A stretch of DNA of 37,462 nt from a virus. Of the stretch, positions 23,976 through 34,724 are shown piece by piece (within the stretch, counting starts at the first letter, position 1; each line of letters opens with the position of its first letter). The notes under the pieces were generated by a model that saw only the letters and a program-made list of their open reading frames with translations, was not told the origin of the DNA and ran no database searches. The translations under genes and the position numbers were made by a program. The stretch spans positions 1 to 37,462 of the IMG/VR virus record IMGVR_UViG_3300038701_001221. One strand, 5' to 3'.

Positions 23976-25769
23976 TTAGTTTGAAAGAATGAAAATATAT
24001 GGCAATTCTAAGCTAGCTTCTTTAGCCCGTTCACATTGCCTGTTGAACGTAGTGAGAGCATTCTCTATCGTAAGAATAATCGGCTCACCGTGGTAGTTGT
24101 ACGACGTGTTTATCAATACAGGATAATCTTGTTGACCGAGAATGTCTGTCATAAAATCATCAGTAGCTACTTGCGGGCGAGAAGTCATAATAAAGTCATT
24201 CAGCGGATCTCTATGGACAACGCCGCCGATGTCACAATCGTCTTGGCCTGAGTGCATGTCTACGTGATAAGTCACAATCATGTATTTATCAGATCCGACA
24301 ACACGCGACCATTGATCTTTCTTGTACATTCGTTGTAGAAAGTCCTCAGTCATAACCGGGGCCATAGGCATCACTTCGTTACGGTCGTTCATTTTGTTTA
24401 TGGCTTCAGAATTTTTCTTTGTCGGCTTTGCTAAAGTTGTCGTGTGACACAACGCTCGAGGACCGAATTCCTGGCCAGGACGTTTGACGTTAACGATCTT
24501 ATTGTTTTTCAAAAGTTCAGCTATGGCGTCTTTAATGCCTTGATCACTTTCTTTTCCGTACACGACGTTTTTATGGAATTCTTCGTTTACTGTTTCAAAA
24601 ACTAAGCCATTGTCCACTTCACTCTGTAAGTCTTCAAATTCAGGTAAATTAGATTGACCGAATATCATACCACTAAAATCTAAAGGATGGAAAGGGTTGT
24701 AAGCGTAGAACATCCCGATGCCGCAACCTTGGTCGCCATTGATTGGATTTGTACAGTATAACCCGTCAATCTCGTTTAGCAATCGATTGTTTAGTTTAAC
24801 GTTGTAGAATATTCCACCGCAAGTGATCAAGTTTTTGACTTCGAAATGTTGGGCGAGGATCGTAACTACTTCTTCAATAACTGTCTGAACACCAAAGCCT
24901 GTAACGATGCGTTTGAATTCTTCATCGTCAAGTAAAGTAAACGGAATACCGCACTGACCGAGATAGGTCAACCAGTTTCTGAAACGTTGGTGCCAGCTCT
25001 GTTTGACGTTTCTCAGATGATCAAAGTTTATCAAATCGAATTCAGAAGTCCCGCCCATATACTCAGGGATACCTTCTTTCGTGTCTTCCCATGCCAACAT
25101 AGCTTCTGCTTTGTTTTCAGCAAAATTGATCAACTCTCTTTGGAACGCGGCGATGACATCCGGCTCTAGAACCTCTTTGATCTTTGACTCGTAACCGAGG
25201 AATTTGTATTCATCTTTATTTTCGCTCATGCCACAAAAGCTTGTAGCGTATTGGTACATGAGGCCGAGAGAATGTTCGTAGCCATACGTTCTATGGATTT
25301 TACGAGGCTTTCCAAAATGATCAACTTTATATACGGATATCACTTCCTGTTTATTGCCAAAACCATCAGCTACGAGAACAGTCGTATCAGCAAAAGCCCC
25401 ATCATAATTATGACTGCCGGCAAAAGCCACGGCTGAATAAGCGTGGGCGTCATGATGCGTATGCTTCTCGTCAACGACGATTAGATTGTAATTATTCACG
25501 ATCTCGTTTAACTTTTCATAAGAAAAATATTTGCAATCATCAAATCTCTCCGTGCCAAAACCATCGAACCAATGGCTGATATACACTTCAGCTTCTTCTT
25601 CTCGGTTGATCAACCCATCTTCCTTAAGCTTTAGAAGAGCGTCATAGGGGAAAGCGGAAGATGCTTTTTTACGGTCAAATCTTTCTTGCTCGTAGGCACG
25701 GATTTTCCCGTCTTCAGTAACTACGGCCGCGCTAGCGTTATGGCCTAATGTGATCATGATATATTGCAT
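23976..25769 (-). CDS. NodU/CmcH-family carbamoyltransferase, predicted DNA 5hmC carbamoyltransferase
   Basis: 597 residues, the normal length. The N-terminal Kae1-like half has TLGHNASAAVV, EQERFDRKK and THHDAHAYSA (metal-binding histidines about 105-109), then VADGFG and GLMYQYATSFCGM. The C-terminal YrdC-like half has RPGQEFGPRALCHTTTLA and NDRNEVMPMAPVM. The family transfers carbamoyl from carbamoyl phosphate with ATP to hydroxyl groups. Phage members acting on 5-hydroxymethylcytosine in DNA have been reported. Beside a dCMP-hydroxymethylase-like enzyme, that is the likely substrate. The ATG follows the stop of the 59-residue gene with no gap. Confidence 0.88.
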   Translation of the reverse strand: MQYIMITLGHNASAAVVTEDGKIRAYEQERFDRKKASSAFPYDALLKLKEDGLINREEEAEVYISHWFDGFGTERFDDCKYFSYEKLNEIVNNYNLIVVDEKHTHHDAHAYSAVAFAGSHNYDGAFADTTVLVADGFGNKQEVISVYKVDHFGKPRKIHRTYGYEHSLGLMYQYATSFCGMSENKDEYKFLGYESKIKEVLEPDVIAAFQRELINFAENKAEAMLAWEDTKEGIPEYMGGTSEFDLINFDHLRNVKQSWHQRFRNWLTYLGQCGIPFTLLDDEEFKRIVTGFGVQTVIEEVVTILAQHFEVKNLITCGGIFYNVKLNNRLLNEIDGLYCTNPINGDQGCGIGMFYAYNPFHPLDFSGMIFGQSNLPEFEDLQSEVDNGLVFETVNEEFHKNVVYGKESDQGIKDAIAELLKNNKIVNVKRPGQEFGPRALCHTTTLAKPTKKNSEAINKMNDRNEVMPMAPVMTEDFLQRMYKKDQWSRVVGSDKYMIVTYHVDMHSGQDDCDIGGVVHRDPLNDFIMTSRPQVATDDFMTDILGQQDYPVLINTSYNYHGEPIILTIENALTTFNRQCERAKEASLELPYIFILSN

Positions 25770-32541: not shown

Positions 32542-32832
32542 CTAGTTATGGTTTATATAAACGCGCTCGTAGCACGCTTTAACTTTCTCTAATTCAGGAT
32601 GCGCAGCGATCCACGATCCTGTGTAGTCACAAAACTCAGTCCTAAAAAATTCGTCTAATACTTCGTGCCCTGTGTCGATAGAGGGATCAATATCAAAACA
32701 TAGATCGTCAAATTCAGAGTCCGACATAATCGTATGCCCGGTATATTCGTAAGCGTATGCGGCCACAGAGACTCTTATGCGGTTACGTCTTTCTATTTCT
32801 ATCTTTGTCGGAGAGTATTCCTCTTTCTGCAC
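32542..32832 (-). CDS. Small phage protein resembling DNA-ligase N-terminal (Ia) region
   Basis: 96 residues starting with GTG. The core reads RIRVSVAAYAYEYTGHTIMSD, then FDDLCFDIDPS, TGHEVLDEFF and GSWIAAHPELEKV. The YAYE....IMSD.EFD pattern resembles domain Ia of NAD-dependent ligases (YYV.D.P..SD.EYD) and recurs as a stand-alone small phage protein. With no adenylation domain it cannot be a ligase alone. It overlaps the GcrA-like gene by 50 bases. Confidence 0.65.
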   Translation of the reverse strand: MQKEEYSPTKIEIERRNRIRVSVAAYAYEYTGHTIMSDSEFDDLCFDIDPSIDTGHEVLDEFFRTEFCDYTGSWIAAHPELEKVKACYERVYINHN

Positions 32833-32992
32833 GTTTTTGCTTTAGCTCCTTGTAAGTTGTTCCTTTGACATAAATTTTCGAATAGTGCTCTTCGCAGTAA
32901 CTTTTACCAGGAAGAGTCGGTTTTGCGCAATACATTGAGTCTTTACCTTCGCCGCTCACGCAAAACCTGCACTCGTTGTTGCCTATGTCCAT
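32783..32992 (-). CDS. Mini GcrA-like protein (C-terminal sigma-interacting type domain)
   Basis: 69 residues. The stretch ECRFC (8-11), MYCAKPTLPGKSYCEEH (20-36) follows the C-terminal signature of GcrA (CRWP...FCG...LPGKPYC..H). That domain binds sigma70 region 2 in Caulobacter. Conserved ligands Cys8, Cys22, Cys33 and His36 are present, with Cys11 replacing the usual Pro. The N-terminal DNA-binding helix-turn-helix of GcrA is absent; a basic helix (KELKQKRAERG) follows instead. It may redirect host sigma70. Resemblance is by pattern only. Confidence 0.65.
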   Translation of the reverse strand: MDIGNNECRFCVSGEGKDSMYCAKPTLPGKSYCEEHYSKIYVKGTTYKELKQKRAERGILSDKDRNRKT

Positions 32993-33004: not shown

Positions 33005-33451
33005 TTACTCGTCCTCGAAATCTTCTTGAGCTGAAGATAAATCGGCTAACGATGGAAGCTCAACACCTTCTAAGCCTAAAGCTTCTCTCAGTTTTTGCTT
33101 CTTAGATTTCATTTCAAGCGATTTAACCCTGCGAACCAATTCGCGTTCTGCTTTTTTAGTTTGCTCGAGCTGTGTCGTATCGATCTTTGTAACGATCCAT
33201 TTATATTTGATTTCAGTCGATAAGTCAATTTCAGCATCGATTTCGACAACCTTGACGCAACAAAATCCAAATTCGTTGCTAGGACCGGCGCATTCTACAA
33301 GAACAAGATCTCCGACTTTTAGGTCTTTGATATTAGTCTTGTACGTGTATGTTTTTATTTCGTTACGCGTTCCTGCGCTTATATCAGTAAAAACGCATTT
33401 GACAGCAGTCACGTTATCGTCGGCAAGGAATGCCATTGTTGAGTAGTTCAT
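33005..33451 (-). CDS. Hypothetical beta-barrel/coiled-coil protein
   Basis: 148 residues. The N-terminal half is beta-rich (TYTYKTNIKDLKVGDLVLVE, then FCCVKVVEID), a small barrel seen in many phage hypotheticals. The C-terminal half is a charged coiled coil (QTKKAERELVRRVKSLEMK) ending in an acidic tail. AGGAG precedes the ATG. Function unknown. Confidence 0.6.
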   Translation of the reverse strand: MNYSTMAFLADDNVTAVKCVFTDISAGTRNEIKTYTYKTNIKDLKVGDLVLVECAGPSNEFGFCCVKVVEIDAEIDLSTEIKYKWIVTKIDTTQLEQTKKAERELVRRVKSLEMKSKKQKLREALGLEGVELPSLADLSSAQEDFEDE

Positions 33452-33631
33452 AGTTTTTCTCCTATTTTTCTCTAGTTTGGTTAAAGGTTGCCGTCTCTCC
33501 GAGCTGTCACGCTTTCTAGTTAACCCATTGCGTCAAGGTACTTCCCGCTAGATCAGGTGAGTATATTATCCAGATTTACTACTCAATAGCTACGTTTTAC
33601 GACTCGTGTCAACTCTGGTGCTAAAGTCTTA
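33452..33631 (-). other. Non-coding 180-base region with possible promoter and RNA structure
   Basis: No usable frame on either strand. On the minus strand TTGACA (33607-33612), 18-base spacer, TATTGA (33583-33588) is a possible promoter with a perfect -35 but weak -10. Downstream, GGTTAA (33520-33525) pairs with TTAACC (33479-33484) around a 35-base GC-rich interior, and GAGTA/TACTC pairs farther up. A structured leader for the gene at 33451 is possible; I see no known riboswitch or tRNA. Confidence 0.4.
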
Positions 33632-34229: not shown

Positions 34230-34258
34230 ATCCTGCATCGTAAAAAATAGCATGTACA
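34230..34258 (-). promoter_or_regulatory. Leftward early promoter
   Basis: On the minus strand TGTACA (34253-34258), 17-base spacer, CAGGAT (34230-34235). Together with the preceding T7 run it matches the promoter of the modification operon at 26331-26359. It should start the leftward arm at about 34223. Confidence 0.65.
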
Positions 34259-34287
34259 CAAAAAAATAAATTTATTTTTGTGTTTAC
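34254..34287. promoter_or_regulatory. 34-base palindrome, probable bidirectional operator
   Basis: Arms 34254-34270 and 34271-34287 match at 15 of 17 positions, centred on AAATTT. The left arm includes the leftward -35 box and the right arm overlaps a rightward -35 box, so a dimeric protein bound here would control both directions. The Cro-like product of 34452-34724 is the obvious candidate. Confidence 0.7.
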
Positions 34288-34311
34288 TTTTTTGTGTAGA
34301 CGGATTAGAAC
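34283..34311 (+). promoter_or_regulatory. Rightward promoter for the Cro-like regulator and primase
   Basis: TTTACT (34283-34288), 17-base spacer, TAGAAC (34306-34311). The -10 is only 4/6. Transcription would start near 34318 and give a leader of about 135 bases. Confidence 0.45.
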
Positions 34312-34405: not shown

Positions 34406-34546
34406 TTAAGATTAGCTATACCGTTAGTTAAGATATAAGGAGAAAACTACAATGGTAAAATCAAAGGAAATAGCGCGTCAGCTTGCGTCTGAAGCACTTG
34501 ACAAGCTCATCGATAGGGCGGGAAGTCAAATGCAGTTAGTTAAGAT
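34402..34546 (+). repeat. Three direct copies of TTAGTTAAGAT
   Basis: Exact 11-base copies lie at 34402-34412, 34424-34434 (22 bases apart, two helical turns) and 34536-34546 inside the regulator gene. The last two share one more base. They sit in the regulator leader and next to the replication gene, so they may be regulator sites or iterons of an origin. Confidence 0.75.
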
Positions 34547-34724
34547 GCTTAAGAATGACGGTTATGATGTGACGCCTCAAGCAGTTCAGAATTGGGTTAT
34601 CCGAGGTCAGATCAGTAAACAAGGCGCAATAGCAGTTGCAAGACATCCCGAATTCGCACCTGAATTCTCCATGACTCAGCTCCGCCCTGATATTAGTGAA
34701 GCTGAGTGGAAGGAGGCGCTGTGA
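34452..34724 (+). CDS. Cro/YdaS-like transcriptional regulator
   Basis: 90 residues. Helix-turn-helix: GSQMQLVKMLKNDGYDVTPQ, then AVQNWVIRGQISKQGAIAVA (residues about 23-65), ending with MTQLRPDISE. The AV..W...G.I......A......SM..LRPD pattern is that of YdaS/Cro-type repressors. It should bind operators in the adjacent control region (palindrome 34254-34287 or the 11-base repeats) and set early gene expression. No CI-type partner or integrase is seen. Start follows AAGGAGAAA. Also first gene of the rightward arm. Confidence 0.82.
   Translation: MVKSKEIARQLASEALDKLIDRAGSQMQLVKMLKNDGYDVTPQAVQNWVIRGQISKQGAIAVARHPEFAPEFSMTQLRPDISEAEWKEAL

Follow-up and report, generated by a model that had tools for sequence, protein, structure and literature searches.

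Can a phage make use of the sigma-interacting domain (SID) of GcrA, a regulator of the alphaproteobacterial cell cycle, when the rest of that protein is missing? In GcrA, the SID binds domain 2 of sigma and the DNA-binding domain (DBD) recognises methylated promoters (PMC7403470). The question is raised by a small ORF in a 37,462-base virus record, which was analysed over its full length and is referred to here as the window. The structural genes of this record are those of a P22-like podovirus (portal, major head protein, head closure Hc3 and DNA ejection), and its early genes encode a PrimPol/D5 primase-helicase, a family-A DNA polymerase, an Enc34-type SSB, a DUF2800 exonuclease, a helicase, a thymidylate synthase and a dCMP deaminase. 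Three ORFs of the structural half (593, 374 and 294 aa) are without a PHROG match. The window also has a NodU/Nol-like carbamoyltransferase gene at 23976-25769 on the minus strand (Pfam Carbam_trans_N and _C, PHROG 1601), possibly a modification enzyme.

The SID gene and its surroundings

The ORF spans exactly 32783-32992 on the minus strand, starts with ATG and translates into 69 aa, MDIGNNECRFCVSGEGKDSMYCAKPTLPGKSYCEEHYSKIYVKGTTYKELKQKRAERGILSDKDRNRKT. Its codon usage is coding-like, with a score of +0.08 bits/codon against a mean of +0.20 (minimum -0.09) for true-frame 210-nt segments of this phage and a wrong-frame 95th percentile of -0.04. Upstream in the same operon, the gene of a 148-aa protein (PHROG 13551; 33005-33451, minus strand) has its stop 12 nt ahead of the SID start, and downstream a gene with a GTG start (32542-32832, minus strand) overlaps the SID gene by 50 nt; given this spacing and this overlap, the SID gene is probably translated within a coupled operon. 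The overlapping gene encodes a 96-aa protein with a lone Nlig-Ia domain (Pfam E 1.2e-8, above the cut-off), which in DNA ligase is the N-terminal domain that binds NAD+; no ligase adenylation domain was found anywhere in the window. The intergenic gap upstream of the 148-aa and SID genes (33452-33631, minus strand) is a possible place for a promoter and contains one GANTC, at 33601; with this single site in the early gap, enrichment of GANTC at promoters is not significant. Four of the 37 GANTC sites of the window (32717, 32770, 32914 and 32937) fall inside 221 bases in or beside the SID gene.

Within the 69-aa protein, alignments (A2-A4) and hhalign to the GcrA profile delimit a SID core of residues 1-45 (32858-32992, minus strand), made up of the segment that precedes the first Cys and a CCCH knuckle predicted to bind zinc. 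The knuckle residues are C8 (codon 32969-32971), C22 (32927-32929), C33 (32894-32896) and H36 (32885-32887), all on the minus strand, and there is an additional C11. The remaining residues 46-69 (32783-32857, minus strand) form a Lys/Arg-rich tail without a GcrA match that is probably helical, as in a low-confidence AF2 helix at 44-65. The AF2 model of the whole protein is likewise of low confidence (pLDDT 69, pTM 0.42), and a Foldseek search with it gave no match below E 5.

Homology to the SID of GcrA

Profile searches against GcrA found similarity over the core of the protein. The Pfam GcrA family (PF07750) aligns its positions 105-147 of 155 to residues 2-43 with an E value of 3e-4 and 21.6 bits, a score that does not reach the curated cut-off of 26.9 bits for membership of the whole family; it is the one GcrA match in the entire virus record. 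Because the match covers profile positions 105-147 only, the DNA-binding half is missing: the ORF itself begins at the SID, and the N-terminal DBD (GcrA residues 1-45) is absent. A second family, WRC (PF08879), matches residues 22-41 only (profile 16-35 of 43) with an E value of 7e-5 and 22.8 bits, below its cut-off of 28.6.

An HMM of the SID built without the window protein scored it at 26.9 bits, as compared with a maximum of 18.5 among 1,000 shuffles in which Cys and His were held fixed. A stricter HMM, which leaves out the window protein and also two GcrAs that had been found through it or its relatives, gave 21.1 bits, whereas 2,000 such shuffles reached 14.9 at most, and the best unrelated ORF among ~14,900 reached 10.3 bits. 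By this measure the similarity to the GcrA SID is more than a mere Cys/His pattern. Most of the signal nevertheless sits in the C/H/Y/G signature, since one of 2,000 shuffles ties the stricter score when four Tyr/Gly positions are fixed in addition to Cys and His.

When residues 1-45 were aligned by hhalign to the SID of 12 GcrA proteins, the probability was 92.9% and the pairwise E value 3.6e-7. The features of the GcrA SID that are present include the CCCH knuckle, the YC..H...Y motif and the stretch that leads up to the first Cys. With this stretch the ORF opens: its N-terminus MDIGNNECRF aligns with INLKQNQCHF in phage ctHz2215 and with LTLGAHMCKW in GcrA from Caulobacter. GcrA's WPxGD segment is altered, with CRFC in place of CKWP. 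A PDB search with a profile built from the protein together with its relatives, two full-length GcrAs among them, returned 5yix (the GcrA SID bound to sigma70 domain 2) first, with an E value of 0.0013, and 7ye1 (full GcrA) was likewise among the leading matches; when the full-length GcrA rows were removed, 5yix still ranked first but not significantly (E 0.32). These comparisons show the 69-aa protein to be homologous to the GcrA SID, a family link that is well supported. They bear out the sequence-only reading of the ORF as the C-terminal domain of GcrA standing alone, with the DNA-binding part missing, by the Pfam match, hhalign, the SID HMMs and the leading PDB entry alike.

Relatives in other phages

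Profile matches show that stand-alone SIDs recur in other phages and that the one in the window is not unique. Among IMG/VR phages, two such proteins score above the Pfam GcrA cut-off with the SID alone, one in L011/L012 (71 aa as read; 27.2 bits in L012) and one in L035 (76 aa, 36.8 bits). A larger and looser IMG/VR set, the A5 group, comprises 90-100-aa proteins of the form CTYIG...SYCAEHYALVYK.G on contigs of up to 207 kb and resembles GcrA less closely, with scores of about 13-21 bits under the strict SID HMM. A SID-like family of 90-100 aa occurs in the large phage contigs L002, L004, L008, L009, L013, L014, L018, L021, L040 and L041, and its conserved C-terminal helix region reads EAIAELEAEGFD.YGDSE. 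Full-length GcrA is encoded in the IMG/VR loci L003 and L038, and proteins of the full-length type are found in the named phages phiCbK-like, Atu_ph08, Pam5, ctHz2215, DMCA, Bajun and RHph_X2_24. RHph_N65, a phage of Rhizobium phaseoli, encodes a weaker 74-aa candidate of the SID type (EVC08_040; Pfam 19.0 bits, below the cut-off). It also has homologues of the window's SSB, DUF2800 protein and DNA polymerase, the last at 31% over 770 columns.

No SID was found in relatives close by capsid, such as L043, L051 and L054, and the DNA available for the 80 best DUF2800-type viral loci contained no SID-like frame other than one that is implausible and low-scoring; because these loci yield no plausible SID, the gene appears to be accessory. 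In L084/L085, on the contig of L043, the capsid is 77% identical, the early region is strongly diverged and no SID was found; GATC (9/141) and CTAG (13/143) are depleted there. Single-protein scans with the 148-aa protein or the DUF2800 protein gave no relatives. Two Anaerolineae membrane proteins, the sole matches of a scan of bacterial genomes, share a short YCEEHY match and were judged unrelated, and MseS-P1 gp15 (106 aa, annotated GcrA) was rejected as a stand-alone SID, since its open frame extends beyond the annotated start in the upstream direction.

The probable host and the proposed phage promoters

The CcrM site GANTC is present 37 times in the window where 161 are expected from dinucleotides, and it is the most depleted of all tested palindromes of 4-7 bases. 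Among the 16 palindromes of the form NNnNN it ranks first in Pam1, Pam5 and each of the five named alphaproteobacterial phages so compared, but not in four controls (Achromobacter, Pseudomonas, Klebsiella and picocyanobacterial phages); a phiCbK stretch has 14 where 80 are expected. GANTC has been reported to be under-represented in alphaproteobacterial genomes (PMC3973325), and about half of pelagiphages are reported to be depleted of it (PMC9516812). The host of the window phage is therefore probably a GANTC-methylating (CcrM/GcrA) alphaproteobacterium, as judged indirectly from this depletion, and this would make host GcrA and sigma70 sensible targets; the depletion could also stem from restriction of the HinfI type in a different host. 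The capsid resembles that of the Pseudanabaena phages Pam1 and Pam5 and so pointed to a cyanobacterial host, which is unlikely given the GANTC depletion and the match of the replication proteins to a Rhizobium phage; no psbA-type gene was found in the window. Pam1 and Pam5 (L107, L093), deposited as Pseudanabaena phages, are themselves depleted of GANTC (12/104 and 29/174), Pam5 with a full GcrA, and Ssp-JY42 (L103), deposited as a Synechococcus phage, encodes GcrA; the true hosts of these three may merit a check. The phage of L035 is without GANTC depletion, and so are most of the large A5-type phages, whose relatives of the knuckle may act in other hosts or serve another partner.

The sequence-only reading had also placed atypical phage promoters at 26.3 and 34.2 kb. 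This found no support, as promoter-like sites are not above chance in either region: two were found at 32.7-34.9 kb where shuffles predict 3.8, and three at 25.7-26.7 kb where they predict 2.2. The chief feature of the 34.2-kb gap is instead an inverted repeat next to an HTH gene (34452-34724), which is divergent and YdaS-like (E 2e-5). Nested A/T-rich inverted repeats at 34254-34298 (GTACACAAAAAAATAAA / TTTATTTTTGTGTTTAC and another copy) lie between that gene and the divergent early operon. The repeat looks like a repressor operator and the HTH protein like a repressor of the Cro/CII type. Scans with positive controls detected neither a sigma-70 region 2 domain nor a PF01555-type N6/N4 DNA methylase in the window, and family scans of its large ORFs gave no indication of a T7-type RNA polymerase.

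What the protein may do

A SID alone can, most simply, block GcrA at sigma domain 2, open promoters in an untargeted way or work with a DNA-binding partner. The reading that we favour, and whose chances we put at about even, is that a GcrA SID recruited by the phage docks on domain 2 of host sigma70, most likely as a GcrA competitor devoid of DNA binding. The phage would have recruited from GcrA a zinc knuckle of ~45 residues, with a short basic tail and without a DBD, and the 69-aa protein would dock on host sigma70 as the GcrA SID does. Lacking a DBD, it might then displace host GcrA from sigma70, and RNA polymerase might thereby be freed from methylated cell-cycle promoters during infection. 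We prefer these last two steps only tentatively, because GANTC sites are scarce in the phage, which would gain little from GcrA through them, and because the promoter scans show no special promoters at the two places named earlier. Against the reading as a whole stand the Pfam score below the cut-off, the concentration of the similarity in C/H/Y/G positions and the replacement of CKWP by CRFC, together with the low-confidence AF2 model and its empty fold search, the occurrence of the A5 relatives mostly in large phages without GANTC depletion, and the failure to find a SID in capsid-close relatives or in the DNA available for the 80 DUF2800-type loci.

A rival reading is a small zinc knuckle of another kind, WRC- or treble-clef-like, that arrived at the C-x13-C-x10-C-x2-H pattern by convergence and has a different partner. 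WRC slightly outscores GcrA on residues 22-41, the tie among shuffles with fixed Tyr/Gly positions points the same way, and the A5 group is mostly found in large phages without GANTC depletion. We nevertheless regard convergence as unlikely, since the GcrA match takes in the entire SID, the stretch ahead of the first Cys included, the genome bears the alphaproteobacterial GANTC signature, further short phage SIDs score above the Pfam cut-off and GcrA is the top PDB family. An activating role is also improbable in our estimation, though it shares the proposed contact: the SID on sigma domain 2, alone or with its tail on DNA, would aid open-complex formation at phage promoters without a need for methylated GANTC. 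GcrA itself reportedly stimulates the formation of open complexes by way of sigma domain 2 (PMC7403470), no phage sigma was detected and the tail is basic; yet no distinct promoter class is visible at the places where it had been proposed, and the recruitment of GcrA to promoters goes through the DBD, which is absent here. Least probable is a split GcrA, in which the SID and a separately encoded DNA-binding protein, for example that of the HTH gene nearby, rebuild a two-part activator. In G002-G004, a separate 86-aa frame ~5 kb from the SID-like gene has a weak match of the GcrA-DBD type, which would fit such an arrangement, whereas the HTH protein of the window does not match the GcrA DBD, and with its divergent gene beside the inverted repeat it looks like a repressor.

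By docking on sigma70 domain 2, the phage may use a lone SID to interfere with the host transcription machinery or to borrow it. That phages of CcrM/GcrA hosts repeatedly use a lone SID in this way, as a ligand of sigma70 domain 2, and so uncouple RNA polymerase from methylated cell-cycle promoters, is a more doubtful extension; if true, it would define a class of anti-GcrA (or sigma2-appropriation) factors, the counterpart of the phage factors that target sigma domain 4. The small size of the protein and the solved template complex (5YIX) make the idea directly testable, and GANTC depletion offers an independent and cheap clue to the hosts of such phages.

Comparison with known systems

The role proposed for phage GcrA homologues is to raise GcrA-type activity, and a SID without a DBD would predict an opposite, or a different, action. 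Such homologues are already known (PMC3556154, PMC6630229, PMC9382816), and full-text searches of open-access papers found no description of a stand-alone SID among the hits listed. With the SID of Caulobacter GcrA (PF07750; 5YIX, 7YE1), the 69-aa protein shares a knuckle of Cys, Cys, Cys and His in the same order, the stretch leading up to it and YC..H...Y, but it lacks the N-terminal DBD and linker and has CRFC for CKWP, Cys11 and a basic tail of its own. The full-length GcrAs of phages (phiCbK gp222, Atu_ph08 gp5, Pam5 gp57 and ctHz2215) are likewise SIDs carried by phages, mostly of GANTC-type hosts, but retain the N-terminal HTH/DNA-binding part that is missing here. Similar in architecture are the proteins of L011/L012 and L035 and the candidate EVC08_040 of RHph_N65, SIDs of 71-76 aa without a DBD, which differ in belonging to other phages and gene neighbourhoods and are at most 30-40% identical to the 69-aa protein. 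In its presumed effect, a small phage protein on host sigma70 that changes promoter use, it would resemble T4 AsiA, Thermus phage Gp39 and Xp10 P7, with which it has no known sequence kinship; these and the other phage sigma regulators listed in one review act on sigma domain 4 and not on domain 2 (PMC7403470), whereas the 69-aa protein would target domain 2.
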